Virus record (IMG/VR): IMGVR_UViG_3300021938_000097 | Span: 1 to 24,235 of that record | DNA length: 24,235 nucleotides | Strand: one strand, 5' to 3' | From: a virus | Shown here: piece by piece, positions 3,722 to 21,751 of the stretch | Layout of the letters: each line of letters opens with the position of its first letter | How positions within the stretch are numbered: position 1 is the stretch's first letter | Made by a program: the position numbers and the translations under genes | The notes under the pieces: model-generated | Told to the model about the DNA's origin: nothing | Seen by the model: the letters and a program-made list of their open reading frames with translations, nothing else | The model's database searches: none

Positions 3722-3734
3722 ATGGCGCCTTTTA

Positions 3735-4507
3735 TTATTTAGCGTTTTTCTTATTTTCTTGTTCAGCTTGAACTCTATATGCATCTAATGCAATACGGTC
3801 TAACTGCGTAATTAATTCTAACTCATATTCTTCTGGTTGTACTTTTATTAATTTAAAATAACTATAAATATCTGAGTAAACTAAAGGATTCATACCAAAT
3901 CCATTACTTGTTCTTTTATTATGTAAATCAATAAAATATTTCCAAATGTATCTCATACTATTAGGTAGTTCTAATAATCCTTCTAATTGAGGGACAAGTT
4001 TACCTATTTGTCTGGATGCAGACTCATACTTTGAACGCAAAGAGCCTTCACCTGAACCAAGTGTAAACTCTTGTTTTGCAAATTCAATTAACTGTTCTGC
4101 ATCTTCGGCTGAAAATTTAATACGTCAGCACTTTCTGTAATAATAGCTTCACGAATCCAAGGGTGTTGTTTTAGTACTTCTCGGGCTTTTTCTTTACTAA
4201 ATGGTACATCTTGACCTTGTTCAGTAATACCAGACCAATTAACTAATCGAACTAAAGTAGATTCTACAGCTAATTCTTCAGCTTCGTCTAAATCCATTTC
4301 TTCTGACTCTTTGCCTTTGCGTTTAGCAATGGCTTGTTTTTGCTGATATTCTTGAAATTTCTTACGACTATACATCTTTACAGTGCTAGATAAATCACCT
4401 AAAATTGTAAGAAAAGCACCAGAAGATGCACCTGTAGGTAATTTTAATTCAAAAGTATATCCTAGATCAGCGGATTTAGAAAAATCTTGTTGTTGTAGAT
4501 CAAACAT
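3735..4507 (-). CDS. Tail assembly chaperone fusion (gpGT-like) made by -1 frameshift
   Basis: The downstream frame (3735-4112) has no convincing start of its own; its first candidate is a TTG at 4040. It stays open upstream into the end of the preceding gene. Reading 4507-4112 and then stepping back one base at 4112 gives a fused protein of about 257 residues: 132 from the upstream frame and 125 from the downstream frame. The junction is a perfect slippery heptamer, A AAT TTT. Lambda gpG/gpGT proteins work this way, coating the tape measure protein during tail assembly without entering the virion. The extension is rich in Glu, Leu and Tyr and ends in a basic ENKKNAK tail, 13 bases before the tape measure start. 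Function rests on position and frameshift structure, not on recognisable sequence. Confidence 0.85.
4088..4507 (-). CDS. Tail assembly chaperone, short form (gpG-like)
   Basis: A 139-residue protein is translated from the ATG at 4507 behind AAAGGAG and ends at a TAA eight codons past the slippery site. It is the abundant unshifted product, expected to act with the frameshifted form in chaperoning the tape measure protein. The start region (residues 17-40, ELKLPTGASSGAFLTILGD) resembles the beta-rich start of phage tail chaperones that mimic part of the tail tube protein. A basic segment (RKKFQEYQQKQAIAKRKGK) and an acidic one (EEMDLDEAEE) follow. It is the first gene after the promoter at 4557-4585, directly after the tail tube gene and before the tape measure gene, which is the normal place for this role. 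Confidence 0.82.
   Translation of the reverse strand: MFDLQQQDFSKSADLGYTFELKLPTGASSGAFLTILGDLSSTVKMYSRKKFQEYQQKQAIAKRKGKESEEMDLDEAEELAVESTLVRLVNWSGITEQGQDVPFSKEKAREVLKQHPWIREAIITESADVLNFQPKMQNS
4112..4118 (-). promoter_or_regulatory. -1 ribosomal frameshift slippery heptamer
   Basis: On the coding strand the heptamer is A AAT TTT, in register with the upstream frame (TTA AAT TTT CAG), so it fits X XXY YYZ exactly. Both tRNAs can re-pair after a -1 slip (AAT to AAA, TTT to TTT), and the shifted frame then stays open for 125 codons. No strong hairpin or pseudoknot is obvious downstream by eye. Confidence 0.85.
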
Positions 4508-4556
4508 TAGTTAATTACTCCTTTGTAGTTATAGCAAAATTGCTTGTTTATATTCT

Positions 4557-4585
4557 ATTATAACATTAATAGTATACAAAGTCAA
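4557..4585 (-). promoter_or_regulatory. Sigma70-type promoter for the tail chaperone/tape measure operon
   Basis: The -35 TTGACT (4580-4585) and -10 TATAAT (4557-4562) are 17 bases apart. The first gene starts about 50 bases below the -10. CTATTA/TAATAG inverted-repeat arms (4555-4560 and 4567-4572, six-base spacer) overlap the -10 and could be an operator. The terminator of the previous operon lies just upstream, so this is a separate transcription unit. Confidence 0.8.
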
Positions 4586-4611
4586 TACGTTAATATAAAT
4601 AAAAATCAGAA

Positions 4612-4625
4612 TTAAACTTGTTTAA
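4612..4625. repeat. Near-palindrome upstream of the promoter
   Basis: TTAAAC-TT-GTTTAA is a perfect 6+6 inverted repeat with a two-base centre, lying between the terminator U-tract and the -35 box. Its position and symmetry fit a dimeric regulator site, but an AT-rich palindrome this short can occur by chance. Confidence 0.35.
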
Positions 4626-4628
4626 AAC

Positions 4629-4663
4629 GAAAAAATACCCCAAGGAATTAACCAAGGGGTATT
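4629..4663 (-). terminator. Rho-independent terminator after the tail tube gene
   Basis: Transcribed from the minus strand, ATACCCC pairs with GGGGTAT (with an inner GG/CC pair beyond a TT/TT internal loop; loop TTAATT). Six U residues follow. It separates the head/connector/tail-tube operon from the tail chaperone operon. Confidence 0.85.
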
Positions 4664-4667
4664 ATAT

Positions 4668-4708
4668 GACAGGTTAATTACTTCTGTCGCAATCCGAGTT
4701 ATCTCGGA
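4668..4708 (-). other. Two hairpins in the 3' region of the tail tube transcript
   Basis: Downstream of the tail tube stop codon the transcript can form TCCGAG-ATAA-CTCGGA (4693-4708), then GACAG...CTGTC (4668-4688), just before the terminator hairpin. Three consecutive stem-loops may protect the 3' end of an abundant message. Confidence 0.5.
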
Positions 4709-4717
4709 ATCATTTTA

Positions 4718-5914
4718 TTAGGCTTGTGAATCGCTAATAACAATTGTAGTTACATCACCAGCAGCATTGCTGTTGTTTAGTAATGCAGTAAAAGCTGTAG
4801 AAGCAGTAATAGCTCCTTCACCGTCATCTTTAGTAAAACTGTTAAATTTGCAACGTGGCATTGTAATTGTAAAGAAATCAGCGGTAGCAGAGTTATTTGT
4901 AGTTAAATTAATAATAACAGAAACTTCTGTTTCATTTTTAAATGCATCACGCGCTGCGGCGTCAATAAAATATAAACTTAGGTTGCCATCGACAATCGCT
5001 CGGCCATCTACTGATTCAACAATACTATTAGAACCTAGAGCAGTAGTTTCAGCTAAGTTACGGTTTAAGTTAATTGTACAATTAGTAATTACAGCTACTT
5101 TAGCACCATTAAAAATAACTGAGCCATTAACACCAGCACATACACCTGTTGTTCCTAAAGCAGAAGGAGAAGTAAAATATTGTGTTGTACCTGTTTGAGT
5201 TAAGTCTTTACCAGTTAAAGAAAAGTTAACAGTTGAAATACCAGTAGAAGGTAGGGTTAGCCCCATAGTATTTACTTTAACCCCAGTATATACTTCAGAT
5301 TGAGCAATACCAATACAAAATTCTTCTACAGTAAATGATTTACTAGTGTGACCAGTTTGAGGTACATAAGTCTTTTTACCTTGAACTACAAGAGTAGCAC
5401 CTGTAACGGTAGGACTAGGTGTAATTGTAGCGCCGTTAACAACTACAAAAGTAATATCAAGTGCTACTACGTTAGTAATTAGTAAATTAATATTAAGGTT
5501 ATCAGAAGCAGCACCAGTACCTGCTGTTAAACGAATAATATCGCCTAATTTAAAACCATCAGTAATAAATGAACCTGATGCACGGGTAATATCTGTTGTA
5601 GTAACAGCTAAAGATAGTCCTGTAAAACTAATACCAGCAGTAAAATCTCTTGCTAAAGCAGCTTGCATTAGAGTAGAATAAGAGCCAGGAGATAATTCAC
5701 CAGCTACTGTACCAGCACAAGAACGTACACCATGTCGGAAGTCCGCAACTTGATAGTCAGTACGAATTTCGGCTGATTGATAGGTAGCTTTTGCTAAGTT
5801 AAATGTTGAAGTAACTCGACGTAGTAAAGCAGCGCCAGAAGCACCAGCTAATACGCCGTATGAAGATTCGGGCTTGATAGCAAGCTGCTTGGTAATACCA
5901 CGGGCAATAGTCAT
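4718..5914 (-). CDS. Tail tube (major tail) protein
   Basis: A 398-residue protein starting at the ATG at 5914 behind AAGGAA. It stacks as rings around the tape measure to form the tail tube. The N-terminal pattern (ITKQLAIKPESSYGV, then RRVTSTFNLAKATYQSAEI and FRHGVRSCAGTVAGELSPGSY) is typical of a family of siphovirus tube proteins that bind neighbours through a conserved beta-strand edge. The middle (about residues 110-175) has the usual DGFKLGDIIRLT insertion, and the rest is Thr/Ser/Asn/Val-rich beta sequence. At almost 400 residues it is longer than the lambda gpV class. It follows the tail terminator gene and is followed by a strong terminator, consistent with high expression. Confidence 0.88.
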   Translation of the reverse strand: MTIARGITKQLAIKPESSYGVLAGASGAALLRRVTSTFNLAKATYQSAEIRTDYQVADFRHGVRSCAGTVAGELSPGSYSTLMQAALARDFTAGISFTGLSLAVTTTDITRASGSFITDGFKLGDIIRLTAGTGAASDNLNINLLITNVVALDITFVVVNGATITPSPTVTGATLVVQGKKTYVPQTGHTSKSFTVEEFCIGIAQSEVYTGVKVNTMGLTLPSTGISTVNFSLTGKDLTQTGTTQYFTSPSALGTTGVCAGVNGSVIFNGAKVAVITNCTINLNRNLAETTALGSNSIVESVDGRAIVDGNLSLYFIDAAARDAFKNETEVSVIINLTTNNSATADFFTITMPRCKFNSFTKDDGEGAITASTAFTALLNNSNAAGDVTTIVISDSQA

Positions 5915-5934
5915 GTTTTATTCCTTTTTGTATC

Positions 5935-5948
5935 TAGGGTAAACCCTA
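5935..5948 (-). other. Hairpin upstream of the tail tube ribosome site
   Basis: TAGGG-TTTA-CCCTA forms a compact five-pair stem-loop in the gap between the tail terminator gene and the tail tube start, just before the AAGGAA ribosome site. No U-tract follows, so it is more likely an RNA processing or stability element than a terminator. Confidence 0.45.
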
Positions 5949-5983
5949 ATTAATTTGTTTTAATGTTTTAAGATTTACATCTA

Positions 5984-6394
5984 TTAACCAAATACTTCTG
6001 CTGAGTAACTAATAATAATAGGTAATACTGTTCTATCTTGTACTGTACTTGTTCCTGCAATATAAGGTGTTCCTACAATAATAATTGTGGTATTTCCTTC
6101 TGTAAAACTATCTCCTTGATGGAAATAACTTCTAGTTAACTCTGCTCTGTCTAATATAGGTATTGTTCCTAGATTATTAGGATAACATAAGAAAATTTGA
6201 TAAGAACCTATTTCCCTATGATATAAACCTCCTAATGTTGGATCAAGAGGTCTAGCAGGACTTAATTGCACTCTTTGATAAGGTATACCGGGAGTAGGAG
6301 TAAAACTTACTGCTTCATAAGCTGTATCTATATTCGGTGTAATACTATTTAATCTTTTATTAAATGCTTTAGTAATTTCTGAAAGTGTATTCAT
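5984..6394 (-). CDS. Tail terminator / tail completion protein
   Basis: A 136-residue protein expected to cap the tail tube at its head end and stop its growth. The N-terminal helix (LSEITKAFNKRLNSI) followed by TPTPGIPYQRVQLSPARP, the central YHREIGSYQIFLCYP, and GIPYQR/DRAELTRSYF spacing resemble the small DUF4128-type tail terminator family. The mixed alpha/beta layout and length fit lambda gpU-class proteins. Its start codon overlaps the preceding stop by one base (TAATG), showing translational coupling. Position between connector and tube genes supports the role more strongly than sequence does. Confidence 0.78.
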   Translation of the reverse strand: MNTLSEITKAFNKRLNSITPNIDTAYEAVSFTPTPGIPYQRVQLSPARPLDPTLGGLYHREIGSYQIFLCYPNNLGTIPILDRAELTRSYFHQGDSFTEGNTTIIIVGTPYIAGTSTVQDRTVLPIIISYSAEVFG

Positions 6395-6951
6395 TATTCT
6401 CCACTCATATCATAATACTCTTTTAGATTTTGAGCATATACATTCATAATAGAATTAATAGTTGGACCTGATATACCAGAAGGTGCTTGTAATGAATACC
6501 CATTTTCAAGAGAACCAAATCTAGATATAACTATACCAGAATTAGCTACATAAGGTATATTATTTGTAATATAAATAGTTTCACCTAATTTATAATCTTT
6601 AGATGCATTCTCAGCAGAGATTTTAACATTATCAGCACTAGATGAATTAGCTATAATACCTAATTTATATTTACTAGTTGATCCAAATGAAAGAATCCAT
6701 CCACCTTTAGCATGACCGGGTTTTGGCTGTAAATGATATACATTAGCTCGGGCAGGAATAAAATAAAGAGAGTTTATTTCACCTGTTTCTGGATTTACTA
6801 AAGAGCCATAAGGTGTGTTATTGATTGCTTCTATTGTAATATTATAAGAGAATAATTCTACCATTCCCATTAACTTACGTTTGACTTCTTCTTTATATTC
6901 TTGTAGTTGTTTAAGCAAAACATCAGTTGAGACTTTAATCTGAACTGACAT
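6394..6951 (-). CDS. Neck/tail completion protein, HK97 gp10-like
   Basis: A 185-residue protein with an N-terminal amphipathic helix (STDVLLKQLQEYKEEVKRKL) followed by FSYNITIEAINNTPYGSL and then GHAKGGWILSFG. This 'helix, then TPxxTGxLxxGW' arrangement is the signature of the HK97 gp10-like / minor capsid-to-tail family. The late ETIYITNNIPYVANSG is the conserved NxxxYAxxlexG-type motif. These proteins act at the head-tail joint or in tail completion. TAATG overlaps occur at both ends, so it is tightly coupled with its neighbours. Confidence 0.82.
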   Translation of the reverse strand: MSVQIKVSTDVLLKQLQEYKEEVKRKLMGMVELFSYNITIEAINNTPYGSLVNPETGEINSLYFIPARANVYHLQPKPGHAKGGWILSFGSTSKYKLGIIANSSSADNVKISAENASKDYKLGETIYITNNIPYVANSGIVISRFGSLENGYSLQAPSGISGPTINSIMNVYAQNLKEYYDMSGE

Positions 6952-9406: not shown

Positions 9407-9769
9407 TTAGAATTTTTTTGTTCCTAATCTATTATGAGTATAATTAGAACTTCTTTTGATAACAAAAGTACCTGCATATTTTATAGTACTTAAACCACCT
9501 TTTGCATGATTTAAACCTATATTTATATGTGGTCTTAATTTGTATTCAATATCTAAACAATAATCAATATCAGATTTAAGAATAATATCAAAAATAAAAT
9601 CTTGATATTTATTTAAAGAATTATAAAGTTTATGATTTTTACTATTTTTAATTCTTAAATGATCTTTAAATCTTCTTTGTGGGTTGGTAGTTATACCGAT
9701 ATAACCTTGCGCAAACATATCTGTATGACAAGGACGGTGTAACCAATAAACATAACAAACTTTCCCCAA
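9407..9769 (-). CDS. GIY-YIG homing endonuclease, N-terminal nuclease part
   Basis: A 120-residue protein. The GIY-YIG fold is clear: VCYVYWLHRP as the first strand (GIY position), GYIGIT as YIG, then NPQRRFKDHL with the conserved Arg and His, IEYKLRP with the metal-binding Glu, and GLNHAKGG. No ATG preserves the first strand; the TTG at 9769, six bases below the stop of the decoration gene, is the best start and probably depends on coupling. It ends soon after an A7 run; dropping one A continues the protein into the NUMOD3-like downstream frame, giving about 225 residues. Free-standing homing endonucleases of this sort spread by cutting phage genomes that lack them. Without the DNA-binding half it may be inactive or unspecific. 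Confidence 0.85.
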   Translation of the reverse strand: MGKVCYVYWLHRPCHTDMFAQGYIGITTNPQRRFKDHLRIKNSKNHKLYNSLNKYQDFIFDIILKSDIDYCLDIEYKLRPHINIGLNHAKGGLSTIKYAGTFVIKRSSNYTHNRLGTKKF

Positions 9770-11216: not shown

Positions 11217-11669
11217 TTACGTTGCGGCTGAAACTAAAAGTTCATCCTGTTCTAAAGTTTCTGTATTTGCTAAAGCACTAATAGATACTCCGTTAATCTC
11301 ACCTGATTTAATCATTTCCCATACAACATCAGAGTGTACTTGAAGGTTAGTTAACCAAGTACCAGCTTTGACTACTACATCATTAAGAATGAAGTCTACA
11401 GGGGCAATATAACTTTCTACAATTGAGAAAGAGTCGGTCTGAACAAGGTGAAATAAATTAGCTTTTCTACAATGCTGATTAAAATTATGGCAAGCTTTTC
11501 GTACTTCTTCAGGAGAGGTACTATCACCATGTAAATCTACTTCATCAGGAACCATAGCAATAAATAATACTTGCTTTAGTTCTTCATTAAGAGATTTTTT
11601 TATTGAAAGTTTAATTTGTTCTTTGGCTTTGCTAAATAACTGTAAATTTTTAAGGTAGTTATTTGTCAT
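11217..11669 (-). CDS. Prohead maturation protease, XkdF-like
   Basis: A 150-residue protein starting at the ATG at 11669 behind GAAAGG. It closely follows the XkdF-type phage serine protease pattern: VLFIAMVPDEVDLHGDSTSP, then EEVRKACHNFNQ, KANLFHLVQ with a His in the usual catalytic position, ESYIAPVDFILND, VVVKAGTWLTNLQVHSDVVW, and IKSGEINGVSISALA with the likely catalytic Ser. These enzymes cleave scaffold (and sometimes capsid) proteins so DNA can be packaged. It is the first gene behind the promoter at 11712-11740 and is followed nine bases later by the scaffold gene. Confidence 0.88.
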   Translation of the reverse strand: MTNNYLKNLQLFSKAKEQIKLSIKKSLNEELKQVLFIAMVPDEVDLHGDSTSPEEVRKACHNFNQHCRKANLFHLVQTDSFSIVESYIAPVDFILNDVVVKAGTWLTNLQVHSDVVWEMIKSGEINGVSISALANTETLEQDELLVSAAT

Positions 11670-11693
11670 TTATGCCTTTCGTAGACAATAAAA

Positions 11694-11733
11694 TGTAAGC
11701 ACTATAATAATATTATATCATACAGTGCTTACA
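11694..11733. repeat. 10-bp inverted repeat flanking the -10 of the head promoter
   Basis: TGTAAGCACT (11694-11703) and AGTGCTTACA (11724-11733) are perfect inverted arms around a 20-base AT-rich centre. The right arm touches the -35 box, the -10 lies in the centre, and the left arm covers the first transcribed bases. This fits a repressor or activator operator; it could also form a hairpin. Confidence 0.65.
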
Positions 11734-11740
11734 ATGTCAA
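11712..11740 (-). promoter_or_regulatory. Consensus sigma70 promoter for the head operon
   Basis: TTGACA (11735-11740) and TATAAT (11712-11717) are both perfect, with a 17-base spacer. The first gene below is the prohead protease, starting about 43 bases below the -10. The sequence around the -35 (ATATTCCTTGACATTG) is the same as in the promoter at 23482-23510, suggesting a common upstream activator or a shared origin. Confidence 0.88.
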
Positions 11741-11759
11741 GGAATATTTTTCCGTAATT

Positions 11760-11782
11760 AATAATTTTAATACAAAATTATT
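11760..11782 (-). terminator. AT-only hairpin at the end of the fibre cassette
   Basis: AATAATTTT-GTATT-AAAATTATT is a perfect nine-pair stem overlapping the stop codon of the 45-residue gene. There is no U-tract and the stem has no G-C pairs, so termination would be weak. It marks the junction between the fibre cassette and the head promoter. Confidence 0.35.
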
Positions 11783-11915
11783 CTTTTGCACTACCCCAAA
11801 TAATAGTAGAACCATCTACCATTGTAAAACGAATAGCATTGTCTCTAGCAAGTCTTTCTGCCTTAGTAAACGTTTCTGTACCATCTACAGAAATTGATCG
11901 TTCTTTAATTGTCAT
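11778..11915 (-). CDS. 45-residue protein with the spike/fibre anchor motif
   Basis: A short gene starts at the ATG at 11915. The protein begins MTIKERSISVDGTETF and continues with FTKAERLARDNAIRF, ending TIIWGSAKE. The start matches the shared N-terminus of the two large fibre genes upstream (MTVKERQIDLAGNE), and FTKAERLA aligns with their FTAAQKVA/FTADQKLA. It therefore looks like a free copy of the virion-anchoring domain, either a remnant of a third fibre or a small attachment partner. The ribosome site is weak. It is too short for certainty, but a chance match to the leader of two neighbouring genes is unlikely. Confidence 0.65.
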   Translation of the reverse strand: MTIKERSISVDGTETFTKAERLARDNAIRFTMVDGSTIIWGSAKE

Positions 11916-11980
11916 ATTAAAGCCAATTTTTAAATTTTAACCAAAGGTTTTTTAAGGAGTTTTTAATTTTTGTAAACATT

Positions 11981-12193
11981 TTAATTTTTAATCCATGTTG
12001 GTTCAGTATTTTGAAATAATTTTAATTCTGTAAGTTCAGAAGTCCAAAAATTTCCACAAGTACATTTAGCTGATAATTTAACAATATTACTACCACCAGA
12101 TAGTAAACCATCTACAGATTGAATAATAGGATCAGCTGCTAAACTTGGATTTCGCATTAACTCCATAACAGAATGACAAATTGGTAAGTGCAT
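11981..12193 (-). CDS. Small 70-residue protein with a CxC motif
   Basis: I do not recognise this protein. The ATG at 12193 has a good AAGGAAA ribosome site; an upstream in-frame extension to 12274 overlaps the previous gene, has no ribosome site and is rejected. The sequence has MELMRNPSLAADPIIQSV, a Gly/Ser turn and SAKCTCGNFWTSELTEL, with Cys-x-Cys and an additional Cys near residue 6. A metal site is possible but not shown. Its start lies eight bases below the stop of the trypsin-like gene, so it is cotranscribed with it. Its codons look AT-rich like the main phage, unlike the preceding gene. Confidence 0.6.
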   Translation of the reverse strand: MHLPICHSVMELMRNPSLAADPIIQSVDGLLSGGSNIVKLSAKCTCGNFWTSELTELKLFQNTEPTWIKN

Positions 12194-12200
12194 ATTTTCC

Positions 12201-13616
12201 TTAATAAGTATTAAAGCCAGACAAGCTAACCTCGTTAACAGAATATTGTGTATTATCGCCAGCAGCAGAAGCAAGCGCCCTCATTTCTGTGTTTAATTGC
12301 GCGGCATTTCCAGAGTATTTCGGCCCATTTCCTGGCCCGTAATACTCGGTCAGCAATACCGGAGTGCCATTTATCACAGTGAAGATTTGACTTCCTGAAT
12401 CGCCCGGAATAGCATAGTCACACCATTGCGTACCGTTTGTGGTAATTGCTCCACTGCCATCACCAGCACTTTTTGAAGTTGGGTTTCCTGCATATCCACT
12501 AGAGTTTGCATATATGCCAGTATCAACATTTGTCCCGCTTGCTTGCTGGTCATCTGGCATTAAAGGCGTCCAGCTTATTCTTTCGCTAAAGTTACCAATG
12601 CTTGCTTCGTAATTGATTCCGTTATTTTGAATTAAACGAGTAAATACTCGAACAACTGGTGGAATATCTGCTGCAGACCCAGGGCCAGCCCTTCGATATT
12701 CTTTGTGTCCGAGGTATGGAATATAGGTTAAGTAATTAGACGGCAAAATCGAAACGCAAGTGACTTGGGTGCTTACTGCAGCATCAAGGTAAAGTAGCTG
12801 GCAATCGTTCAAAGCACCTGTCAAACTAGATGACGAAACCACATTGGCGTAGTATGGGTTGCCATCACGTCCGATCCATGCTATGCGCGTAGGCACTGGG
12901 TTGTAATGGTTGGCCTTAACTGCGTGCCTTGGGGAAATCAAACTGCACGGAGAATAAGCAGAACCAACGCCGGTTCTCACGCTTGACGCCGACATCCAAC
13001 TCATGTCAATGTCTACTGCTACATTGTTTGGGTTTCGCACCGCAGATAGTGCAGTGCCGCTGTAATTGTTCGATGACCAGCGCAGCCGATTGGTATCGTT
13101 GTAAGTCTTTCCGGCAAACCGTGTTGCTACCTGATCGTCCATGTACTTTGCAAGGCTTCCCGGCTGCATAGTCACTGGACGAATAAATGCCAGACCAAGT
13201 GTTATTGAAAAAAAGTTTTGATTTGGGGAATAAGACTCTCCACGATCAGTAAGCAAAATTCCAAAATTAAACGAACTTGAACCTGTTGACCCATCGGATG
13301 CTAATATTGTGAGCGGCTGGTTCATTACTCCGCTAGAATTCCATGTTAGCTGTGGATTACCCACCTGCTGATTTACAGCAGAAATCGTCAAAGGAGTCGC
13401 TGCGCCAGGGGCAGATACGTCAATGAGGGTGTTGTTAAAACTTGGTGCCTCACGAACAGCGGTGGCCACGTCGCTAAAGTTTGTCAAATTAGTAGAAACT
13501 GGCGATACCGTCGCGCCTCTTGGCACAAACGACAGGCTTGTGGGCAGGTCTGACGGCTGCTTTCCGCGTACAATGCGCGTACTGGCAGCATTATATTGAA
13601 TAAGGTTGACTGTCAT
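12201..13616 (-). CDS. Trypsin-like (chymotrypsin-fold) virion-module protease
   Basis: A 471-residue protein that I read as a possible serine protease. CSLISPRHAVKANH supplies His231, NDCQLLYLD supplies Asp271 (Asp278 is an alternative), and CDYAIPGDSGSQIF supplies Ser407 in a textbook GDSG motif, followed by NGTPVLLTEYYG as in the strand after the active-site Ser. Order and spacing (40 and about 136 residues) suit a chymotrypsin-type double barrel in the C-terminal half. Residues 1-200 are Ser/Thr/Asn-rich beta sequence resembling fibre material, and the C-terminus is SLSGFNTY. No signal peptide is seen. The start overlaps the fibre stop (TAATG), so it is coupled with the fibre and probably a virion component, perhaps acting on host surface protein. 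Base composition is G+C richer than the phage average. Confidence 0.75.
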   Translation of the reverse strand: MTVNLIQYNAASTRIVRGKQPSDLPTSLSFVPRGATVSPVSTNLTNFSDVATAVREAPSFNNTLIDVSAPGAATPLTISAVNQQVGNPQLTWNSSGVMNQPLTILASDGSTGSSSFNFGILLTDRGESYSPNQNFFSITLGLAFIRPVTMQPGSLAKYMDDQVATRFAGKTYNDTNRLRWSSNNYSGTALSAVRNPNNVAVDIDMSWMSASSVRTGVGSAYSPCSLISPRHAVKANHYNPVPTRIAWIGRDGNPYYANVVSSSSLTGALNDCQLLYLDAAVSTQVTCVSILPSNYLTYIPYLGHKEYRRAGPGSAADIPPVVRVFTRLIQNNGINYEASIGNFSERISWTPLMPDDQQASGTNVDTGIYANSSGYAGNPTSKSAGDGSGAITTNGTQWCDYAIPGDSGSQIFTVINGTPVLLTEYYGPGNGPKYSGNAAQLNTEMRALASAAGDNTQYSVNEVSLSGFNTY

Positions 13617-14460
13617 TACGCGGAAAATCCAAGGACGTTAGAAATAGCCCGCCAATTAATTGTTGTAGCGGCAATCCCTGTAACCGTAATGTTCAATACC
13701 CCTGCAGAAACAGTGATTTCGACAGTAGAACTTGCAAGGGCGGACGATTTAATATCGTCAGGGCTGGCAGGTTTTACTGTAATTAAAGCACCAGCGCCAT
13801 CCGTAGAAAACTGCCTGCGAAAAACAGCACGATTATTACCACTGACCGCAGAAATTACAATGTCATGGTATTCTAAAGGCCCAATTGTTATGTTAACAGT
13901 GAAATTACCTAAAACCGGGTCGCGCTGCTTGAGAGTCGCGGGTGTAGCATTAATCGTTTGAATGCCAAACAGTTGCCACTCGGTAGCAAATGCAGAGCTA
14001 GGCGTAGATATGGATATTAGATCGTTTGATTTTGAAAAAAATGGCCCTGATGAACCAAGCAACAAAGATTCGTTATTTATACTTCCTAAAGCCGGGTCAG
14101 AACCGCCTGCAGAGATTGCAAGAATGTTTTTTACCTGATCGGTATTACTTGTACCAACTGAACTAGCTCCGCCATTTGAAATTAACAAAACTCCGCTAGT
14201 CCAGTTTAACGAAGCGTCGTTATTTGTTAGCACTAGATTGTTTAAGTTAGTGCCACTTTTGGTGGTGTTTTTGGGAGTAATTACAAGATTGCCAAAAGCG
14301 TCTCCGCTTACCCCACCACCGATCTTCTTGGCACCGCCAGCTACTCCGTTCAATAGATAAAAAACATTGGTATCTGTGGTAATTGCAATTTCATTTGCGT
14401 TGCCCGCCGTAGCTGAAATAACCGAATCAGCCCCGTTACGCGGGACAATTGATGCTTGAA
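12210..14460. other. Segment of foreign base composition
   Basis: From about 12210 to 14460 the DNA is clearly richer in G and C, with GC-ending codons, than the AT-rich sequence on either side. It covers the whole trypsin-like gene and the distal two thirds of the fibre gene, while the first third of the fibre gene is of normal phage composition. Boundaries were placed by eye. Confidence 0.7.
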
Positions 14461-14824
14461 TTATATTTGGCAAATTACCTGTTGGAAGCGTACCTGTAAC
14501 ATCTGAACCTGCTAAATTAATAGCTGTAGTAGATGAACGATATAAGGTATCAAAATAACTTTTAGCTGTAGCTTTTAAATTAGCCCAAGTTAATTTCTTT
14601 AGTACATTAGATGCTGCACTATCTATTAATGGAATTAGGTCAGTATCTACTGGAGTAGCTTTAGATGCTGCTGCTAGGGTATCAACAGCAACATTACCTC
14701 CGCCACCTCCGCCGCCAGTAGCTAACGCTACTTTTTGTGCAGCAGTAAAAACAGAAATACTTCCATCGTTTTGAAGTAATGTTTCATTTCCCGCTAGGTC
14801 TATTTGTCGTTCTTTTACGGTCAT
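13616..14824 (-). CDS. Fibre protein with shared N-terminal anchor
   Basis: A 402-residue protein. The first 35 residues (MTVKERQIDLAGNE, then GSISVFTAAQKVA) nearly match those of the 865-residue spike gene upstream, so both probably attach to the same virion site. A seven-Gly linker (residues 37-43) follows, then VDTLAAASKATPVDTDLIPL and LKATAKSYFDTLYR, a segment typical of phage tail-fibre shafts. The remainder is Ser/Thr/Asn/Gly-rich beta sequence without a catalytic motif. The encoded base composition changes from AT-rich to more GC-rich near 14460 (about residue 120), suggesting the distal, receptor-facing part was exchanged. Because it lies among head genes, a head fibre is an alternative to a tail fibre. 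Confidence 0.75.
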   Translation of the reverse strand: MTVKERQIDLAGNETLLQNDGSISVFTAAQKVALATGGGGGGGNVAVDTLAAASKATPVDTDLIPLIDSAASNVLKKLTWANLKATAKSYFDTLYRSSTTAINLAGSDVTGTLPTGNLPNIIQASIVPRNGADSVISATAGNANEIAITTDTNVFYLLNGVAGGAKKIGGGVSGDAFGNLVITPKNTTKSGTNLNNLVLTNNDASLNWTSGVLLISNGGASSVGTSNTDQVKNILAISAGGSDPALGSINNESLLLGSSGPFFSKSNDLISISTPSSAFATEWQLFGIQTINATPATLKQRDPVLGNFTVNITIGPLEYHDIVISAVSGNNRAVFRRQFSTDGAGALITVKPASPDDIKSSALASSTVEITVSAGVLNITVTGIAATTINWRAISNVLGFSA

Positions 14825-14830
14825 AATTTA
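14733..14830 (-). repeat. 98-bp direct repeat, copy A (start of the fibre gene)
   Basis: This segment matches 17341-17438 with about nine differences over 98 positions by my count; the final 37 positions before the last are identical and include the start codon. It encodes the shared anchor domain. Confidence 0.85.
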
Positions 14831-14834
14831 CTTT

Positions 14835-17432
14835 TTAATTAACTCGTTTTGAAGTATCAACATCATATGCAAAAGTAATAGTAGACCCTGGAGCTACATC
14901 TACATTAATATTAAATGTAGTATTATCAGAACCTGGGGTAATCCACCATTTAGTTGAAGAACTGATTGATCCTGTTGGACGTACACGTACTTGTTGATTT
15001 AATTGTTGTTGTGTTGGAGGATTACCTGCTAAATAAATATCTAATAAATTAGCTAGTGAAATTGTAGCACTAGTTGCTGCTGAAGTAATTGTAGTAGTTC
15101 CAGAAAGTTTTGTTCTAATACCAATACAATTATTAAATTCATATTGTATTTCATTACTAAAATCAGAAGTTAAAATTGGATTATCTATTTCAGTAAAATC
15201 ACAATCAGAGACCATTAAATTAGCATATCTTTTTGCTACTCCATTATAAATAGCATAAGTATTTCTATTAGTACCAAAATATCCTTTTGCTCGACTAAAT
15301 TTACTTCCTCTAATTCTAGCAAAAGTTCCTGCAACAAGAAAACCTAAAACTGCAGCAGTACCACCATTTAAAGGAATTGGTTCTTGAACAGTAATAGTTG
15401 TATTACCACCAGAAAATGATGTACTATAAACAGAATAAATACGATTAGTTCTAGGATCAGAATTTCCTGCAATAGCAAATCTACTATTTATTGGAAGTAA
15501 TCCAGTATAATCTCCAGTAATTATAAATGTTCCTGTATTAACTGTACCAAAACCAGCAGTTCCACCAACTGAACCAGGGGTACAACTATTAATTCCAACG
15601 CCAACAAGAGAGCCAGGAAAAAATTTAATAGCTTGTGCAGCACCATTTTGTTGAATTTCTGTAAAATCTGCTGTAATTTCTATACCTGGAGTATGAATTA
15701 CTGTTAAATGTGGTAATGCTAATCCAGGCTGTCCAGAAAGTCTACCAGCGATTTTAATATCTCTATGTTGTTGAGTTCCAAAATAATTAAAATAAGGTGT
15801 TACTGTAATTCCACCACCTAATGGAACCTGCATTTCTAAATTAACAGTAGAATCTTGTGCATTAAATACTTGTCCGCCTATCATATTAAATGATGTAGCA
15901 GCAACAGCAGCAGGGATAGATGCAAAAGCGCGTAAAGCAGAAGTAAATAAAGTACCAGCAGTTAAAGCAATTGCAGAATTAGATGCTCGACTATTTGATT
16001 TAAAAAGTAAAGCATTAACACCATTTGTTGCTGCCCAATCTACAGTTGCTTGAACTCCATTACTAATTAAAGCAGCATTTATTTGATTTAATAAATTAGT
16101 AAAATTTTGAGCTATAGAACCAGGAATAGTAATATTTACTGGTGCTCCACCATCTACTGCAATTGTAAAATTATAATTTGTAGATGATACAAGATTTGTA
16201 TTTGCAAAAGTAGGAAAAGCTGTATTTAATAAAACAAATTGATAACCACTTGCATATCCAACTGGTTCAATAAAAGTTAAAGAACCCTCTATTTTACATT
16301 TAGTAGCATTTTGTATTGTAAAACCATATGGATTATTACCATCATGATTTACACCACCTACTTGTAAATTGTTAGTACTAATATAACAATTTGTAATATT
16401 ATTACAAATAGTACCAGGAGATTGTGTTACACTAATATCATCTATTTTAATACCACCAGAACGTGTTTGTCCTGCTCGGCCGCCGACATTTATAACGGTA
16501 ATTCCTACAGGCTTATGTAAATTAACGGTTCCTGGAAATCTATAAGTACTAATAGCAATACGAACTGCATGAGCTTTAGTACTAATACAAGTAGGAGCTA
16601 GCCATGTAATATTTGGTCCGATTGATTGATCGTCAAATAAAAGACCATCAGGAAAAGCACTATAGTCTGGTTTACCATCTAATTCAAAAGCTAAAGCGTC
16701 GTCTCCACCTTCAAAATAACCGCCAACCCCATGTATATCTGTACCAAAAATTACATGGAGTCCATCTTGACCTGTATTTTTACCATTAAGAACTTTTACT
16801 CCGGGGCCAATATTACCTCTTTTACCGCCAATTGTAATACCATAAAAAGCACCATAGGGTAAATTATGAACATAAGTTAAATTATCTAAATCAAAATCTT
16901 GTACATTTACTAAATAAATTCCAGCCCTACCTAGCGCTTTACCATTACCATTCCAAATACCACCATAAATACCTAAATTATTAGCACTACCATACCATGA
17001 ACCAGTATAAGAAGAATCAGCACTAACAGTTGCTCTAATTTTATCTGCTAGGGTCATTACTGTACCAAGCATAGATTGAGTAGCATTTTCAGTATTATTA
17101 AAACCACCTGAAGAACCATCGTATAATTTATAAAATATATTATTTCCAAAACGATGATTAACATTAGACCTAACAATTAAACCATTAATATAATAAATTT
17201 GATTATTAGGTAAAACAGCTTCTACTCGTGGGCCACCAGGAATATATTTTGAAGCAGCTAAATCAATCCAAGATTGTAAAATAGCTGTATCATCTCCTCC
17301 TGTACTAGATGGTCCACACACAATTAAAGAAGCTGCTAATTTTTGATCGGCAGTAAAAACAGAAATACTTCCATTACTTTGAAGTAATATTTCATTTCCT
17401 GCTAGGTCTATTTGTCGTTCTTTTACGGTCAT
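14835..17432 (-). CDS. Tail spike with pectate-lyase-like beta-helix
   Basis: An 865-residue protein. It begins with the shared anchor (MTVKERQIDLAGNE, GSISVFTADQKLA), followed by TGGDDTAILQSWIDLAAS and VEAVLPNNQIYYINGLIV, the standard entry into a right-handed beta-helix of the pectate-lyase superfamily. Helix repeats with N- and G-rich turns follow (GVKVLNGKNTGQDGLHV, GYFEGGDDALAFELDG). Roughly residues 395-510 form an inserted domain (NYNFTIAVDGGAPVNITIPG, then LLNQINAAL) that looks separate from the helix. The C-terminal part is again beta-rich. Spikes of this kind bind and often cut host polysaccharide, and the acidic cluster GGDDALAFELDG is a candidate catalytic area, though the substrate cannot be read. 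It lies directly after the portal gene, an unusual place. Confidence 0.82.
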   Translation of the reverse strand: MTVKERQIDLAGNEILLQSNGSISVFTADQKLAASLIVCGPSSTGGDDTAILQSWIDLAASKYIPGGPRVEAVLPNNQIYYINGLIVRSNVNHRFGNNIFYKLYDGSSGGFNNTENATQSMLGTVMTLADKIRATVSADSSYTGSWYGSANNLGIYGGIWNGNGKALGRAGIYLVNVQDFDLDNLTYVHNLPYGAFYGITIGGKRGNIGPGVKVLNGKNTGQDGLHVIFGTDIHGVGGYFEGGDDALAFELDGKPDYSAFPDGLLFDDQSIGPNITWLAPTCISTKAHAVRIAISTYRFPGTVNLHKPVGITVINVGGRAGQTRSGGIKIDDISVTQSPGTICNNITNCYISTNNLQVGGVNHDGNNPYGFTIQNATKCKIEGSLTFIEPVGYASGYQFVLLNTAFPTFANTNLVSSTNYNFTIAVDGGAPVNITIPGSIAQNFTNLLNQINAALISNGVQATVDWAATNGVNALLFKSNSRASNSAIALTAGTLFTSALRAFASIPAAVAATSFNMIGGQVFNAQDSTVNLEMQVPLGGGITVTPYFNYFGTQQHRDIKIAGRLSGQPGLALPHLTVIHTPGIEITADFTEIQQNGAAQAIKFFPGSLVGVGINSCTPGSVGGTAGFGTVNTGTFIITGDYTGLLPINSRFAIAGNSDPRTNRIYSVYSTSFSGGNTTITVQEPIPLNGGTAAVLGFLVAGTFARIRGSKFSRAKGYFGTNRNTYAIYNGVAKRYANLMVSDCDFTEIDNPILTSDFSNEIQYEFNNCIGIRTKLSGTTTITSAATSATISLANLLDIYLAGNPPTQQQLNQQVRVRPTGSISSSTKWWITPGSDNTTFNINVDVAPGSTITFAYDVDTSKRVN

Positions 17433-17438
17433 AATTTG
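17341..17438 (-). repeat. 98-bp direct repeat, copy B (start of the spike gene)
   Basis: This is the partner of 14733-14830. Both copies cover the first about 30 codons plus the start codon and six or so bases upstream. Recombination between the copies would delete the spike or swap its distal domain behind a constant anchor. Confidence 0.85.
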
Positions 17439-17456
17439 CTCTTTATTTTAAATATT

Positions 17457-18953
17457 TTAACTTGCATTTTCTAAATTAGTACTAGAATTATCAGTACCAG
17501 CTACGTTATCTGATGTTCCATTTCCTGATCCTTTAGCCATACCGTCTGACGACCTAGAAGTATTACCTGTTAAGATGCTCATATCTACAGGCTCATCTTC
17601 TGGTTTAGGGTCAAGCCCTACTTGTTTACGGACAGAGTTAAGGGTATCACGATCAATTTCTATTAATCCAACTGATGCAGCACGCTGAATAAATTTAGAA
17701 TACGAATCTAGATCAATATCGGTTAGTCCTTCATAATCTAATGAAGCACAACGAGAAGTATCCCATCCATTTAACTCATATAATTGACGAATAACATCAC
17801 GATTAAAACATTCTACGATGTTATTTAACATTGATTCAACTGCTGTACCTGTAAGTGAGTTTTTAATCGTACCAAGAGCAAAGCTACCTGAACCATTAGA
17901 GCCTAGCAAGAGTACATCACAAAATAAACCTGTATAGATTTGATTCTGATAGTAATCTTTAATTTTACCAATATCAAAATTCTTACCTGCACCTTGTTGT
18001 GTAAGTAATTGAATATCAAATAATCTAGCTTTAGTATCAGGGTCTACTTGTGAAGGTAAAATAATACCTGATTGAGAATTTTGTTGAATATTACGAATAA
18101 TATTTTTAAAGTTCTCATAAATAGCTTTTTGATCTGAACTCGCGTCTGCTGACATATATTGAGCAGGAATACTCATTACAGGTATTCCTACTAAGTCTCT
18201 AGCAACACCAGAGGCTTCAATTTCTTGGATGACTTCTAGGTATCTCCACGCTAAATAAACGTCTCTAAGGCGCGATTTACCAAAAGGATCACCACGATTT
18301 CTACCTGTAGTAATATGAATAAACTTGCTACGTGGTAGAACAATCTCAAGATTCTTATTTGCACTAAGTCTAGCTAGACCAATAGCTGAAAGATTTTGTT
18401 TAACACCTAAGATTTCATTACCTTCTTCATCAAAGATAAATTTTTGAATAGTTTCTTGGTTACGATGTCCTAATTTCTTTAGCCCAATCTTACCATCCGT
18501 GAACATACTACCATTTTTGGCTGTTCTTCTGCGATAGACTTTTTCGATAATACTGAAGCCATAGACATTTGAGCTAAGAGCATCTTTGATAAATTGAGTA
18601 AAAGGCTGATCCATATCACCAAGGCATTCTTCTACAAACTTAGCTTTGGCTTTATCTGATTTAGTAGCTTTTTCAGGAGGTTTAACCCGCCAAATTACTT
18701 TAGAGATAAGATTTTCATACAAAGTCAAACAAGCGTTAATACTTGTATGATAAGTCATTTGCCTATAAAGTTTAATATTATTAGGCCAAAGAAGTTCTTT
18801 TTTATCTTCGTCTTTAGTAACACCAGCAAAAATATTAAGGCCAGAAAAACCTAATTCTGCTAGCTCAAATTTAGCTGGTTTTTCATTAAAACCTAGATTA
18901 GTAGTATTTAAAACTAAAGTACCTTTCTCAGTTTTTTCTTTTTTAATTGCCAT
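17457..18953 (-). CDS. Portal protein, DUF935 (Mu gp29-like) type
   Basis: A 498-residue protein that forms the dodecameric ring through which DNA enters and leaves the head. The pattern is that of DUF935-type portals: LYRQMTYHTSINACLTLYEN, VIWRVKPPE, FVEECLGDM, DALSSNVYGFSIIEKVYRR, KFIHITTGRNRGDPFGKSRL, RDVYLAWRYLEVIQEIEASG, GIPVMSIPAQYM, then GSFALGTIKNSLTG and the stem/wing region LIEIDRDTLNSVRKQVGLDP. The tail is Gly/Ser/Asn-rich. The start at 18953 has GAGGA lying within the end of the upstream HNH gene, which overlaps by 11 bases. Length is normal. Confidence 0.93.
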   Translation of the reverse strand: MAIKKEKTEKGTLVLNTTNLGFNEKPAKFELAELGFSGLNIFAGVTKDEDKKELLWPNNIKLYRQMTYHTSINACLTLYENLISKVIWRVKPPEKATKSDKAKAKFVEECLGDMDQPFTQFIKDALSSNVYGFSIIEKVYRRRTAKNGSMFTDGKIGLKKLGHRNQETIQKFIFDEEGNEILGVKQNLSAIGLARLSANKNLEIVLPRSKFIHITTGRNRGDPFGKSRLRDVYLAWRYLEVIQEIEASGVARDLVGIPVMSIPAQYMSADASSDQKAIYENFKNIIRNIQQNSQSGIILPSQVDPDTKARLFDIQLLTQQGAGKNFDIGKIKDYYQNQIYTGLFCDVLLLGSNGSGSFALGTIKNSLTGTAVESMLNNIVECFNRDVIRQLYELNGWDTSRCASLDYEGLTDIDLDSYSKFIQRAASVGLIEIDRDTLNSVRKQVGLDPKPEDEPVDMSILTGNTSRSSDGMAKGSGNGTSDNVAGTDNSSTNLENAS

Positions 18954-19500
18954 TAATATATTCCTCTAATAATTTATTACTCTTTTGAATATTATCACTT
19001 TTAGTGAGTATTTGTAAATTCCAAGGAACATTTAGACCACAAACTAAATTATTTTTTAATGGTATAATATGATCTACTTCGTGTTTAATACCTGTTGATA
19101 AAGTTAATTCTTTTGCTTTAGCATAAAAATCTAATATAAGTCTATTTTGTTCTTTACTTAACCAACAAGGGCTGGCTTTTACTTTTAAAGCATTTCTTCT
19201 AGTTCTACAAGCATTTCCTATATGCCTATTTGCTCTACCCCACTTTAATTTAACTTTATTAATTCTTGCTTTATTTTTTTGATAGTATTTATTATTTTTT
19301 GCAAGTATTTGTTTTTTATTATTGTAATATTCTTCTTTTCGTTTAGCTAAAATAGTTTCTTTATTTTTATTAGCATATTCTTTTTGATTTGCTCTTGTAC
19401 AAAATTTACAGTAAAAACTATAACCATCTTTATTAGTTTTAATTTTATAAAAATTATCTAATAAATGTGTAGTTTCACATTTTATGCAAAATTTATGCAT
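18943..19500 (-). CDS. HNH homing endonuclease between large terminase and portal
   Basis: A 185-residue protein. It opens with a zinc finger (FCIKCETTHLLDNFYK with CxxC, then FYCKFC with the second CxxC), followed by a Lys/Asn/Tyr-rich linker (about 40-90) with several NKxxILAK-like repeats. The HNH core is HEVDHIIPLKNN, then GLNVPWNLQILTKSDNIQKS, with the D-H pair and the conserved Asn residues. Such zinc-finger HNH enzymes are common free-standing homing endonucleases in phages. The ATG immediately follows the large terminase stop (TAAATG), and its end overlaps the portal start, so it has been inserted without disturbing either neighbour and carries the portal ribosome site. Confidence 0.9.
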   Translation of the reverse strand: MHKFCIKCETTHLLDNFYKIKTNKDGYSFYCKFCTRANQKEYANKNKETILAKRKEEYYNNKKQILAKNNKYYQKNKARINKVKLKWGRANRHIGNACRTRRNALKVKASPCWLSKEQNRLILDFYAKAKELTLSTGIKHEVDHIIPLKNNLVCGLNVPWNLQILTKSDNIQKSNKLLEEYINGN

Positions 19501-20979
19501 TTAAACTATAGGAGAAGGTAAAGTTAACTCCGATGATGGTATAGATACACTTGTATTAATACCAGAAAAATTATTATTAGAAATTAAATCTGGTAAAGAA
19601 AAAGTAGGAAGAACTAATTCTTTATTTAATAATGTAAAAGCATCAGATACACAGTCTACTTGGTCATCATGGTGTTTACCTAAACCATCAAAAATTTCTA
19701 GTTCATCAAAGAATTCTTTATTCCATTCTGCTCTGAGTACATTTACAAAACCAGCTTGAGCAACAGAACTAAAAGGAGCAAATCGTGTTACTTTAGATAA
19801 TACAGGTCTTTGTAATTTACAAGTAAAACCCATTTCACCTAATCTACGTTGAAGGTCTTTAGCATAAGCACCAGCAGCCGCATTTGGGTCTTGTGGAATA
19901 CTAATAGTTACCTCTCGCCCATCCATTACTGCTGTTCTAAAAATTAAAGTTTCTACTTCATGGACTCTATCTCGTATTCCTTTAACATCTTCTACAGTAT
20001 AAATATGAGATTTATCTTTTGATATTAATACACCGCGAGTCCAGTCAGGATTTGAATTTTGTTCAGATACTTTAGAAAAAGCAAAATCCCATGCTCTGAT
20101 TCTTTTATATGCTTTAGGATTAGGATAATCTACTAAAGTTACCCATTCTCGTTTAAACAAACCTGATGCTTCTGCTCTAGCAAACCATGAGCCTAATAAA
20201 AGTCTTTCCATTTCTACTCTAGGTAGAGACATTAATCGGCTAATATATGAAGGATTTGCTTTTAATAATGGTGGATTATCCCTGCAAGTAGCTGGTATAA
20301 ATGTAAAACTTGTAATACCAGATTCATCACCTTTTCCATGAATAGTTTCTGCTTCTTCCAAAGAATTATACCAAATCATTGTATTTCCTTGTCTAAAGAA
20401 ATACCTTTTTACACCTGATAAATGTTCTAATGGAATTCCACTTAAAGGATCAAGATAAAAATCTTGAATCCATAATCTTAAAAATGAATTATAGTCTGGA
20501 TTAGTTGTAATATATAACTGTGGTTTATAATTTACATGAGCATTACGCATACGAGATAATAAATACGTAATCATTTCTTCTGTAAATTCGGTTCCTTCAT
20601 CAAAAGCACAAAAGGATAATTGAGAACCCTTCCAATCATAAATATTTGAATCATATTGTAAATGACTAAATTTTAATACAGACCCATGCGGAAAAATAAT
20701 CTCTAATTCTCTATGACGAACTCTTAATCCTTTAGGATAAATTTCAGAGTACATTGAAACTGCTTCTTGCCAAATACTTCCTGGGGCTTTAATCATAGCA
20801 GAATTTCTACGAAAAATTACACCAGTTGCTTTTGGATGCTGCATAAATTTTAATGCAGTTAATAGCAAGCAGTATGTCTTACCACTACCAGCAGCACCAC
20901 CAGCTAGTGTAATTGTTGCATCAGAATTTAAAATTTGTTCTTGTTTTTTAGATGCGGGTGATAATAATAAATTACTCAT
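19501..20979 (-). CDS. Terminase large subunit
   Basis: A 493-residue DNA-packaging motor and nuclease. Counting from the ATG at 20979, Walker A is GGAAGSGKT (27-35), Walker B is FCAFDE (123-128), and ITTNPD follows as the coupling motif. The RNase H-type nuclease has WDFAF (Asp298), PQDPNAAAG (Asp364) and HHDDQVD (Asp438/Asp442). All key residues are present. I prefer this ATG, whose first bases overlap the previous stop (ATGAGTAA), over a TTG at 21003. The enzyme works with the small subunit encoded two genes upstream and the portal encoded after the HNH gene. Confidence 0.95.
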   Translation of the reverse strand: MSNLLLSPASKKQEQILNSDATITLAGGAAGSGKTYCLLLTALKFMQHPKATGVIFRRNSAMIKAPGSIWQEAVSMYSEIYPKGLRVRHRELEIIFPHGSVLKFSHLQYDSNIYDWKGSQLSFCAFDEGTEFTEEMITYLLSRMRNAHVNYKPQLYITTNPDYNSFLRLWIQDFYLDPLSGIPLEHLSGVKRYFFRQGNTMIWYNSLEEAETIHGKGDESGITSFTFIPATCRDNPPLLKANPSYISRLMSLPRVEMERLLLGSWFARAEASGLFKREWVTLVDYPNPKAYKRIRAWDFAFSKVSEQNSNPDWTRGVLISKDKSHIYTVEDVKGIRDRVHEVETLIFRTAVMDGREVTISIPQDPNAAAGAYAKDLQRRLGEMGFTCKLQRPVLSKVTRFAPFSSVAQAGFVNVLRAEWNKEFFDELEIFDGLGKHHDDQVDCVSDAFTLLNKELVLPTFSLPDLISNNNFSGINTSVSIPSSELTLPSPIV

Positions 20980-21751
20980 GCTTTTTTCTATGCTCTGTGG
21001 CAAGTTGTAAAGCTAATTCATTTCCATATTTTTTAACACTGAAGTTTTTAGCTTTTTGTTTACCATTTTCGTACCATGTAGAAGTATAGTATAAAACACC
21101 GCTCATAGTATTTAAACTTACACCTTTAATTCCAGAAGTATTATCATTTCTGATTAAAGTATTTAAAGCATTTTTCTGATAGGTGACTTCTCTAAGATTA
21201 TTAATTGTATTATTTAATGGGTTATTATCTTTATGATCTATAAGTAGTTCATTAGAAATAAATTTATTATAAAGTAAATAAACAATTCTGTGGACATAAT
21301 AGTTCTTAGAAAAGAAAGATAATTGCCATGCCGATGGGCTACCATTTCTTCTTTTAAGTAGTCTACCAGCTATGTCTCCGGCTTTTTTACGATTAACGGT
21401 GGAATTAGTATTGTTATCTTTTTTCCAACGTAAACCTGTAGGAGAAGTTGAATCTATATAGAACCAAGTATTAAATAAATCATAATCTAATTTAATAACT
21501 GTACTTGAGGCAGTTTTATTATTAACTAAATTAGAATATAAACTAATATAATGTTTTTCTTGTTTTAGTGCTTCTTGTTTAGAGAGATTTTTCTGTAGAA
21601 ACTCAACATTATAACTAAAAGTATTTGCTATATTATGCCACTGTTTATTTCTAGAGAATTTTGAATAAGCACGAGTTTCTGTACCTTGTCCTACATAAAA
21701 AATCTCTTGAGTATCTTTTCTGCGATGTACGTATACACAAAACTTATTCAA
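20972..21751 (-). CDS. Composite homing endonuclease: GIY-YIG + HNH + AP2
   Basis: A 259-residue protein with three apparent domains. Residues 3-75 resemble a GIY-YIG nuclease (FCVYVHRR, FYVGQG, TRAYSKF with an Arg, and LKQEKHYI with the metal-binding Glu). Residues about 150-195 form an HNH_3-type core (VHRIVYLLYNK, LLIDHKDNNPLNNTINNL). Residues about 206-255 look like an AP2 DNA-binding domain (SGIKGVSLN, STWYENGKQKAKNFSV). HNH-AP2 is a common homing endonuclease layout; an additional N-terminal GIY-YIG domain is unusual. It lies between the small and large terminase genes, overlapping the large terminase start by eight bases. Confidence 0.87.
   Translation of the reverse strand: MNKFCVYVHRRKDTQEIFYVGQGTETRAYSKFSRNKQWHNIANTFSYNVEFLQKNLSKQEALKQEKHYISLYSNLVNNKTASSTVIKLDYDLFNTWFYIDSTSPTGLRWKKDNNTNSTVNRKKAGDIAGRLLKRRNGSPSAWQLSFFSKNYYVHRIVYLLYNKFISNELLIDHKDNNPLNNTINNLREVTYQKNALNTLIRNDNTSGIKGVSLNTMSGVLYYTSTWYENGKQKAKNFSVKKYGNELALQLATEHRKKHE

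Follow-up and report, generated by a model that had tools for sequence, protein, structure and literature searches.

The enzymes that phages are known to carry on their virions cut mainly sugars or peptidoglycan. Virion-borne depolymerases, which include tailspike polysaccharide lyases and hydrolases, are encoded with fibre genes in hypervariable adhesin intervals. The locus described here has the same arrangement, but its enzyme is predicted to cut protein and not polysaccharide. A chymotrypsin-like protease is also reported among the structural genes of a tailed archaeal provirus. There, however, the protease is fused to the capsid protein and is counted as a maturation protease, whereas the present peptidase is a separate gene beside fibre genes in a phage that has a true prohead protease. 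A "trypsin-like serine protease" has been recorded for two Rhizobiaceae phages (PMC10783043), and can be set beside the present family by name only. A literature search found no description of the family. In the libraries and papers searched, neither the lineage nor its association with fibre and tail modules appears to have been described; the fold and the chemistry are already known.

The window analysed here is a stretch of 24,235 nucleotides (IMG/VR record IMGVR_UViG_3300021938_000097) from a freshwater virus of bacteria. Its terminase is nearest to those of Limnohabitans phage DC31 (70%) and Curvibacter phage P26059A (49%), and the latter phage is a siphovirus by electron microscopy (PMC5964084). 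An earlier sequence-only reading had described the gene at 12201-13616 as an S1-type protease encoded in the fibre cassette of a siphovirus and distinct from the maturation protease. That observation is confirmed, with the catalytic His corrected, and its interpretation is partly supported. The assignment to siphoviruses is based on gene content and on the relative P26059A. Features are collected in Table 1, and L-numbers are our labels for contigs and loci.

Table 1 Features of the peptidase gene and its surroundings in the window
Feature	Position	Strand	Basis or remark
XkdF-type prohead protease (not the S1 protein), marking the downstream end of the variable interval	11217..11669	-	PF14550 E 1.1e-25; phrog_3017
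Peptidase gene, 471 aa, with predicted C-terminal chymotrypsin-fold serine peptidase domain	12201..13616	-	ORF; family profile 122 bits; AF2 and fold matches
Predicted peptidase domain, residues 185-471	12204..13064	-	Profile envelope; domain model pTM 0.76; S1 folds Z 14.0
C-terminal tail ending in YSVNEVSLSGFNTY	12204..12254	-	Kept in most phage members, not in bacterial lipoprotein members
Ser407 codon, predicted nucleophile in GDSG, invariant	12396..12398	-	Alignment; motif also search key for relatives
Asp271 codon, predicted catalytic, invariant	12804..12806	-	Alignment
His237 codon, predicted catalytic (ANHY, equivalent to trypsin AAHC), invariant	12906..12908	-	Alignment
Helix motif GSLAKYMDDQVATRFAGKT just upstream of the peptidase domain, common to phage members	13107..13163	-	Alignment; AF2 helix 155-167
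TAATG stop/start overlap from the 402-aa fibre-like gene to the peptidase gene	13614..13618	-	Sequence
402-aa fibre-like protein	13616..14824	-	Shared adaptor; tail-fibre segment; L015 motif
865-aa fibre/spike-like protein	14835..17432	-	33-aa N-terminal adaptor common with the 402-aa protein
Portal protein, marking the upstream end of the variable interval	17457..18953	-	phrog_113 E 3.6e-82; Portal_Mu

A fibre cassette in a hypervariable interval

The peptidase gene is an intact ORF, the last of three genes in a fibre cassette that lies between the portal and XkdF genes. As originally read, it is coupled by TAATG to the 402-aa gene, the stop and start codons having position 13616 in common. 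The 402-aa and 865-aa proteins begin with a common 33-aa adaptor (89 of 99 nt identical), as two fibres using one mount would be expected to do. After these near-identical 33-codon starts the two genes diverge completely, as if tips had been swapped onto one adaptor. A segment of about 43 aa in the 402-aa protein recurs in phage proteins annotated as tail fibre or tail proteins, and the 402-aa protein has a motif in common with the fibre gene upstream of the peptidase relative in L015 (E 1e-4). GC3 is 0.41 in the peptidase gene and 0.29 in the 402-aa gene. Because these values lie above those of the eight other window genes tested (0.065-0.226), the pair appears to have been imported recently. 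By this measure the 865-aa gene, with a GC3 of 0.065, is not foreign.

The interval was compared in 11 viral contigs with a related portal gene (L065-L075). XkdF is conserved at 65-69% wherever a contig extends that far, and the genes between portal and XkdF differ in number and kind. Because the borders are kept while the inner genes differ, the interval is a hypervariable accessory island in related freshwater siphophages, and it is probably an adhesin island. The S1 cassette is one passenger of this island; an S1 domain was found in none of the 11 contigs, nor in the examined stretches of P26059A and DC31. Across the window (11217-18953) and L065-L075, the island holds unrelated and sometimes GC-richer (0.52) genes between conserved borders.

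The maturation protease that had been read at the downstream border is indeed of the XkdF type. It resembles the S1 protein in being a serine protease of the structural operon, but belongs to a different family that is conserved in the relatives checked, and the S1 protein has no match to PF14550. The location of the peptidase gene between portal and capsid genes, together with the capsid-fused enzyme reported for the archaeal provirus, could point to a second prohead maturation protease. We rejected this explanation, which is extremely improbable, on the grounds that an XkdF protease is present and that relatives without the S1 gene retain it; the composition of the peptidase gene, which shows recent import, also argues against it. 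A role in anti-phage defence was checked as well, and the protein had no PADLOC match.

Some other features of the window are of separate interest. Putative homing endonucleases (one endonuclease VII/HNH-like, the other GIY-YIG/HNH/AP2) at 18943-19500 and 20972-21751 flank and overlap the terminase gene. A 120-aa ORF at 9407-9769 is 32% identical to a DC31 ORF that lies after the DC31 portal gene, and by eye both resemble GIY-YIG endonucleases. The XkdF gene of the window encodes 150 aa, against 255-290 aa in P26059A and L065, where there is an extra N-terminal part.

Identification of the family

In single-sequence searches, the window protein had no match in Pfam, PHROGs, NCBIfam or PDB (phmmer), none by tblastn against phages, and none in two viral-contig scans. 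Against Pfam there was no match at E up to 10, which leaves the protein below the Pfam Trypsin cut-off. Relatives were sought by pattern scans for GDSGxxxFxxxNGxxVLL and variants of it. The viral scans returned 12, 32 and 9 stretches and the cellular scan 15, with some overlap among them; about 40 diverse relatives were uncovered. An iterated profile over the ORFs of these stretches gathered 57 ORFs at the first round, and 64 domain matches once two loci and one annotated record had been added.

A profile built without the window sequence gave the window protein 122 bits (E 1.3e-34, Z=100,000), whereas 200 shuffles reached at most 5.9 bits; the peptidase domain alone scored 114 bits, and its shuffles 7.3. 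The motifs ISPRHAV (H231), NDCQLLYLD (D271, D278) and PGDSGSQIF (S407) occur in the order first described, and, judged by profile score, the three are not a product of chance, because the independent profile separates the protein so widely from its shuffles. The link to Pfam Trypsin runs only through one relative, L048 (Paractinoplanes). This bridging protein belongs to Pfam Trypsin (54.8 bits, cut-off 20.6), and a profile made without it recognises it at 39.4 bits (shuffles 2.1 or less). The most divergent member, L064, scored 27.0 bits in a leave-one-out test. PDB profile matches outside the domain (Hoc-like, short tail fibre, S-layer) were set aside, as they concern Ig-like N-termini of relatives and not the peptidase.

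Predicted fold and catalytic residues

Structure prediction and a fold search had been proposed as a check on the protease assignment, and the resulting AF2 models match S1 peptidases at Z about 14. In the full-length model, pLDDT exceeds 90 in most blocks of residues 190-300 and 400-470, which carry the triad, and confidence is low at the N-terminal 1-70 and in the loop 302-392. The domain-only model has a pTM of 0.76. The PDB fold search gave hundreds of matches, and among those listed all were S1 peptidases or S1-fold homologues. The best rows had VIA Z of 14.1 and 14.0, with rmsd 3.1-3.5 over 182-200 residues; the domain model matched S1 folds at Z 14.0 over 182-192 residues. Of about 1000 chains, 957 and 985 reached Z 8 or more, as for a double beta-barrel chymotrypsin fold. 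The unmodelled loop is the probable reason why Foldseek TM-scores by target were modest (0.40-0.57 for most single-domain chains listed). The best structural match over most of both proteins is A0A6J7XEP5 of an uncultured Caudovirales phage (BFVD, E 1.4e-13), which has no annotation and is 17% identical to the window protein. On these models, the C-terminal domain has the chymotrypsin (S1/PA) fold. The N-terminal 1-150 has no family match, and the AF2 model is unconfident there.

The alignment of the family identifies the probable catalytic residues. H237 and D271 each occur in 46 of 46 distinct aligned rows, and none of H237, D271 and S407 varies in the 46-49 distinct rows counted for each, whose pairwise identities are near 20-30%. 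Among 36 non-redundant sequences, the sole invariant columns are H237, D271 and G405-D406-S407-G408. As GDSG was the search key, its conservation is partly by construction; the His and Asp played no part in the selection of members, and their conservation is therefore independent evidence. The sequence-only reading had taken H231 as the catalytic His, which is wrong. This position is His in 36 of 45 rows and Y, W or V in the remaining 9, whereas H237 (AVKANHY, equivalent to trypsin TAAHC) never varies. The segment LISPRHAVKANHY aligns with trypsin-type LI(S/T)xxxVLTAAHC, and we take its second His to be catalytic. D271 and D278 had both been offered as the catalytic Asp; the first holds, and the second falls away (D in only 23 of 44 rows). 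From the alignment, the predicted triad is H237-D271-S407.

The window protein can be compared with S1 peptidases of clan PA (Trypsin PF00089, Trypsin_2 PF13365). It shares with them the predicted two-barrel fold, the conserved His-Asp-Ser order of clan PA(S), the GDSG oxyanion-hole motif (G405-D406-S407-G408), and AxH before the His. It differs from them in the large extra loop 302-392, in an upstream helix and C-terminal tail that are phage-specific, and in that no IVGG activation N-terminus was seen. The conserved disulfides of S1A were not found, as no aligned column has Cys in more than half of the rows. The description "trypsin-like" is apt for the fold and not for the specificity. The position of Asp189 (Ser195 minus 6) is Tyr401 in the window protein and Asp in only 3 of 45 family members, so the term should not imply cleavage after Arg or Lys.

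The sequence-only reading had also allowed for an inert fold, which would be a binding module only, at the fibre tip. Pseudo-peptidases of the S1 fold exist, and the HGF beta chain (1shy) is among the fold matches. However, a domain kept for binding alone should, in some lineages, have lost one or more of the triad residues, and the strict conservation of all three across such divergent rows makes an inert fold very unlikely. The same conservation suggests that the peptidase is catalytically active.

Genomic neighbours of the relatives

Phage relatives recur beside tail and fibre genes. The peptidase gene comes after a Mtd_N/collagen fibre gene in L028; in L014, whose S1 domain is truncated, it comes after a spike-like gene. 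In MW202510 it closes the run of structural genes, next to genes annotated as rhamnogalacturonan lyase and FN3. Another carrier of the family, Podoviridae sp. ct3Et533, comes from metagenomic data, as does the window phage. It lies between terminase and head-tail adaptor in L012, and among tail genes in L007 and L045, in the latter just before a tape-measure-like ORF of about 1500 aa. In L064, a single ORF has the peptidase domain followed by a T4-gp19-like tail-tube domain (phrog_45 tail tube E 3.3e-29; gp19 E 0.003, below the Pfam cut-off). This ORF (2853-6305) appears to comprise a lectin-like region, the S1 domain and the tail-tube domain, and the next ORF (6302-6868) begins with the same NTNLALPTNF tail-tube sequence.

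These neighbours, together with the single tail-tube fusion, suggest that the window peptidase is present on the virion. Four marine members (L031, L034, L040 and L041) have a lysin-like gene nearby and no recognisable fibre gene adjoining, so not every member need be on the virion. These marine members, the many sorts of accessory genes in the island of the relatives, and the lack of an evident signal peptide in the window protein would all suit a late-expressed enzyme that merely sits in the variable island and is released at lysis or acts inside or outside the cell. Such a non-virion enzyme is nevertheless improbable in view of the TAATG coupling to a fibre-like gene, the tail-tube fusion, and the repeated adjacency to fibre and spike genes in relatives.

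The main rival to cutting at the host surface is self-processing, in which the peptidase would cut itself or a neighbouring fibre or structural protein during assembly, for maturation or release, and would have no role at the host surface. As a general matter, viral chymotrypsin-fold enzymes are often autoproteases. The peptidase domain of L064 sits between two other domains of one ORF, and phage members have a conserved C-terminal tail behind the domain; both would suit self-processing. On the other hand, the window phage already has its own XkdF protease, the domain is C-terminal in most members with nothing behind it to release, and the bacterial members look like free-standing exported proteins. 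We regard self-processing as unlikely, if worth serious consideration.

The bacterial members come mainly from Verrucomicrobiota. Most of their N-termini look like Sec or lipoprotein signals, which would be fitting for extracellular proteolysis, and several have PEP-CTERM-like ends. Short lipoprotein-like members are found in Akkermansia-type and other Verrucomicrobiota genomes (L050, L051, L052, L057 and L061), and two tandem members with PEP-CTERM-like ends in Verrucomicrobium sp. (L054:4462-6305).

A proposed role at the host surface

We lean, by a little, towards an active, virion-borne peptidase that clips host or extracellular proteins at adsorption and was acquired with the fibre cassette. 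The fold, the invariant triad, the import, and the recurrent tail or fibre adjacency or fusion of relatives were computed; the substrate, presumably host or extracellular proteins met at adsorption, is suggested by this context. In the proposed mechanism, the phage would have acquired a cassette of fibre and peptidase in the hypervariable interval that separates the portal gene from the prohead protease gene. The peptidase would form the C-terminal end of a virion-type protein, with the triad H237-D271-S407 and the GDSG oxyanion loop, mounted on the particle (neck, head or tail) with or beside fibre-like proteins. From there it would clip proteins on or close to the host surface as the phage adsorbs, by analogy with the fibre-borne depolymerases that clip polysaccharide. 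The conserved C-terminal tail and upstream helix of the phage members might anchor the domain on a fibre or sit in the active site.

A broader and more tentative proposal, which we put at slightly below an even chance, is that this widespread chymotrypsin-fold lineage is a virion-borne "protein depolymerase". It would be an enzymatic head that moves among the fibre cassettes and tail tubes of phages and opens the way to the receptor by digesting extracellular proteins or proteins of the host surface. The family is unannotated in viral data because it is invisible to Pfam, PHROGs, NCBIfam and single-sequence searches, and a profile from the present members would detect it there. The findings suggest that the attack of some phages on a cell may involve the cutting of proteins in addition to sugars. 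If the proposal is true, protein cutting at the cell surface would join the known tools of phage entry.
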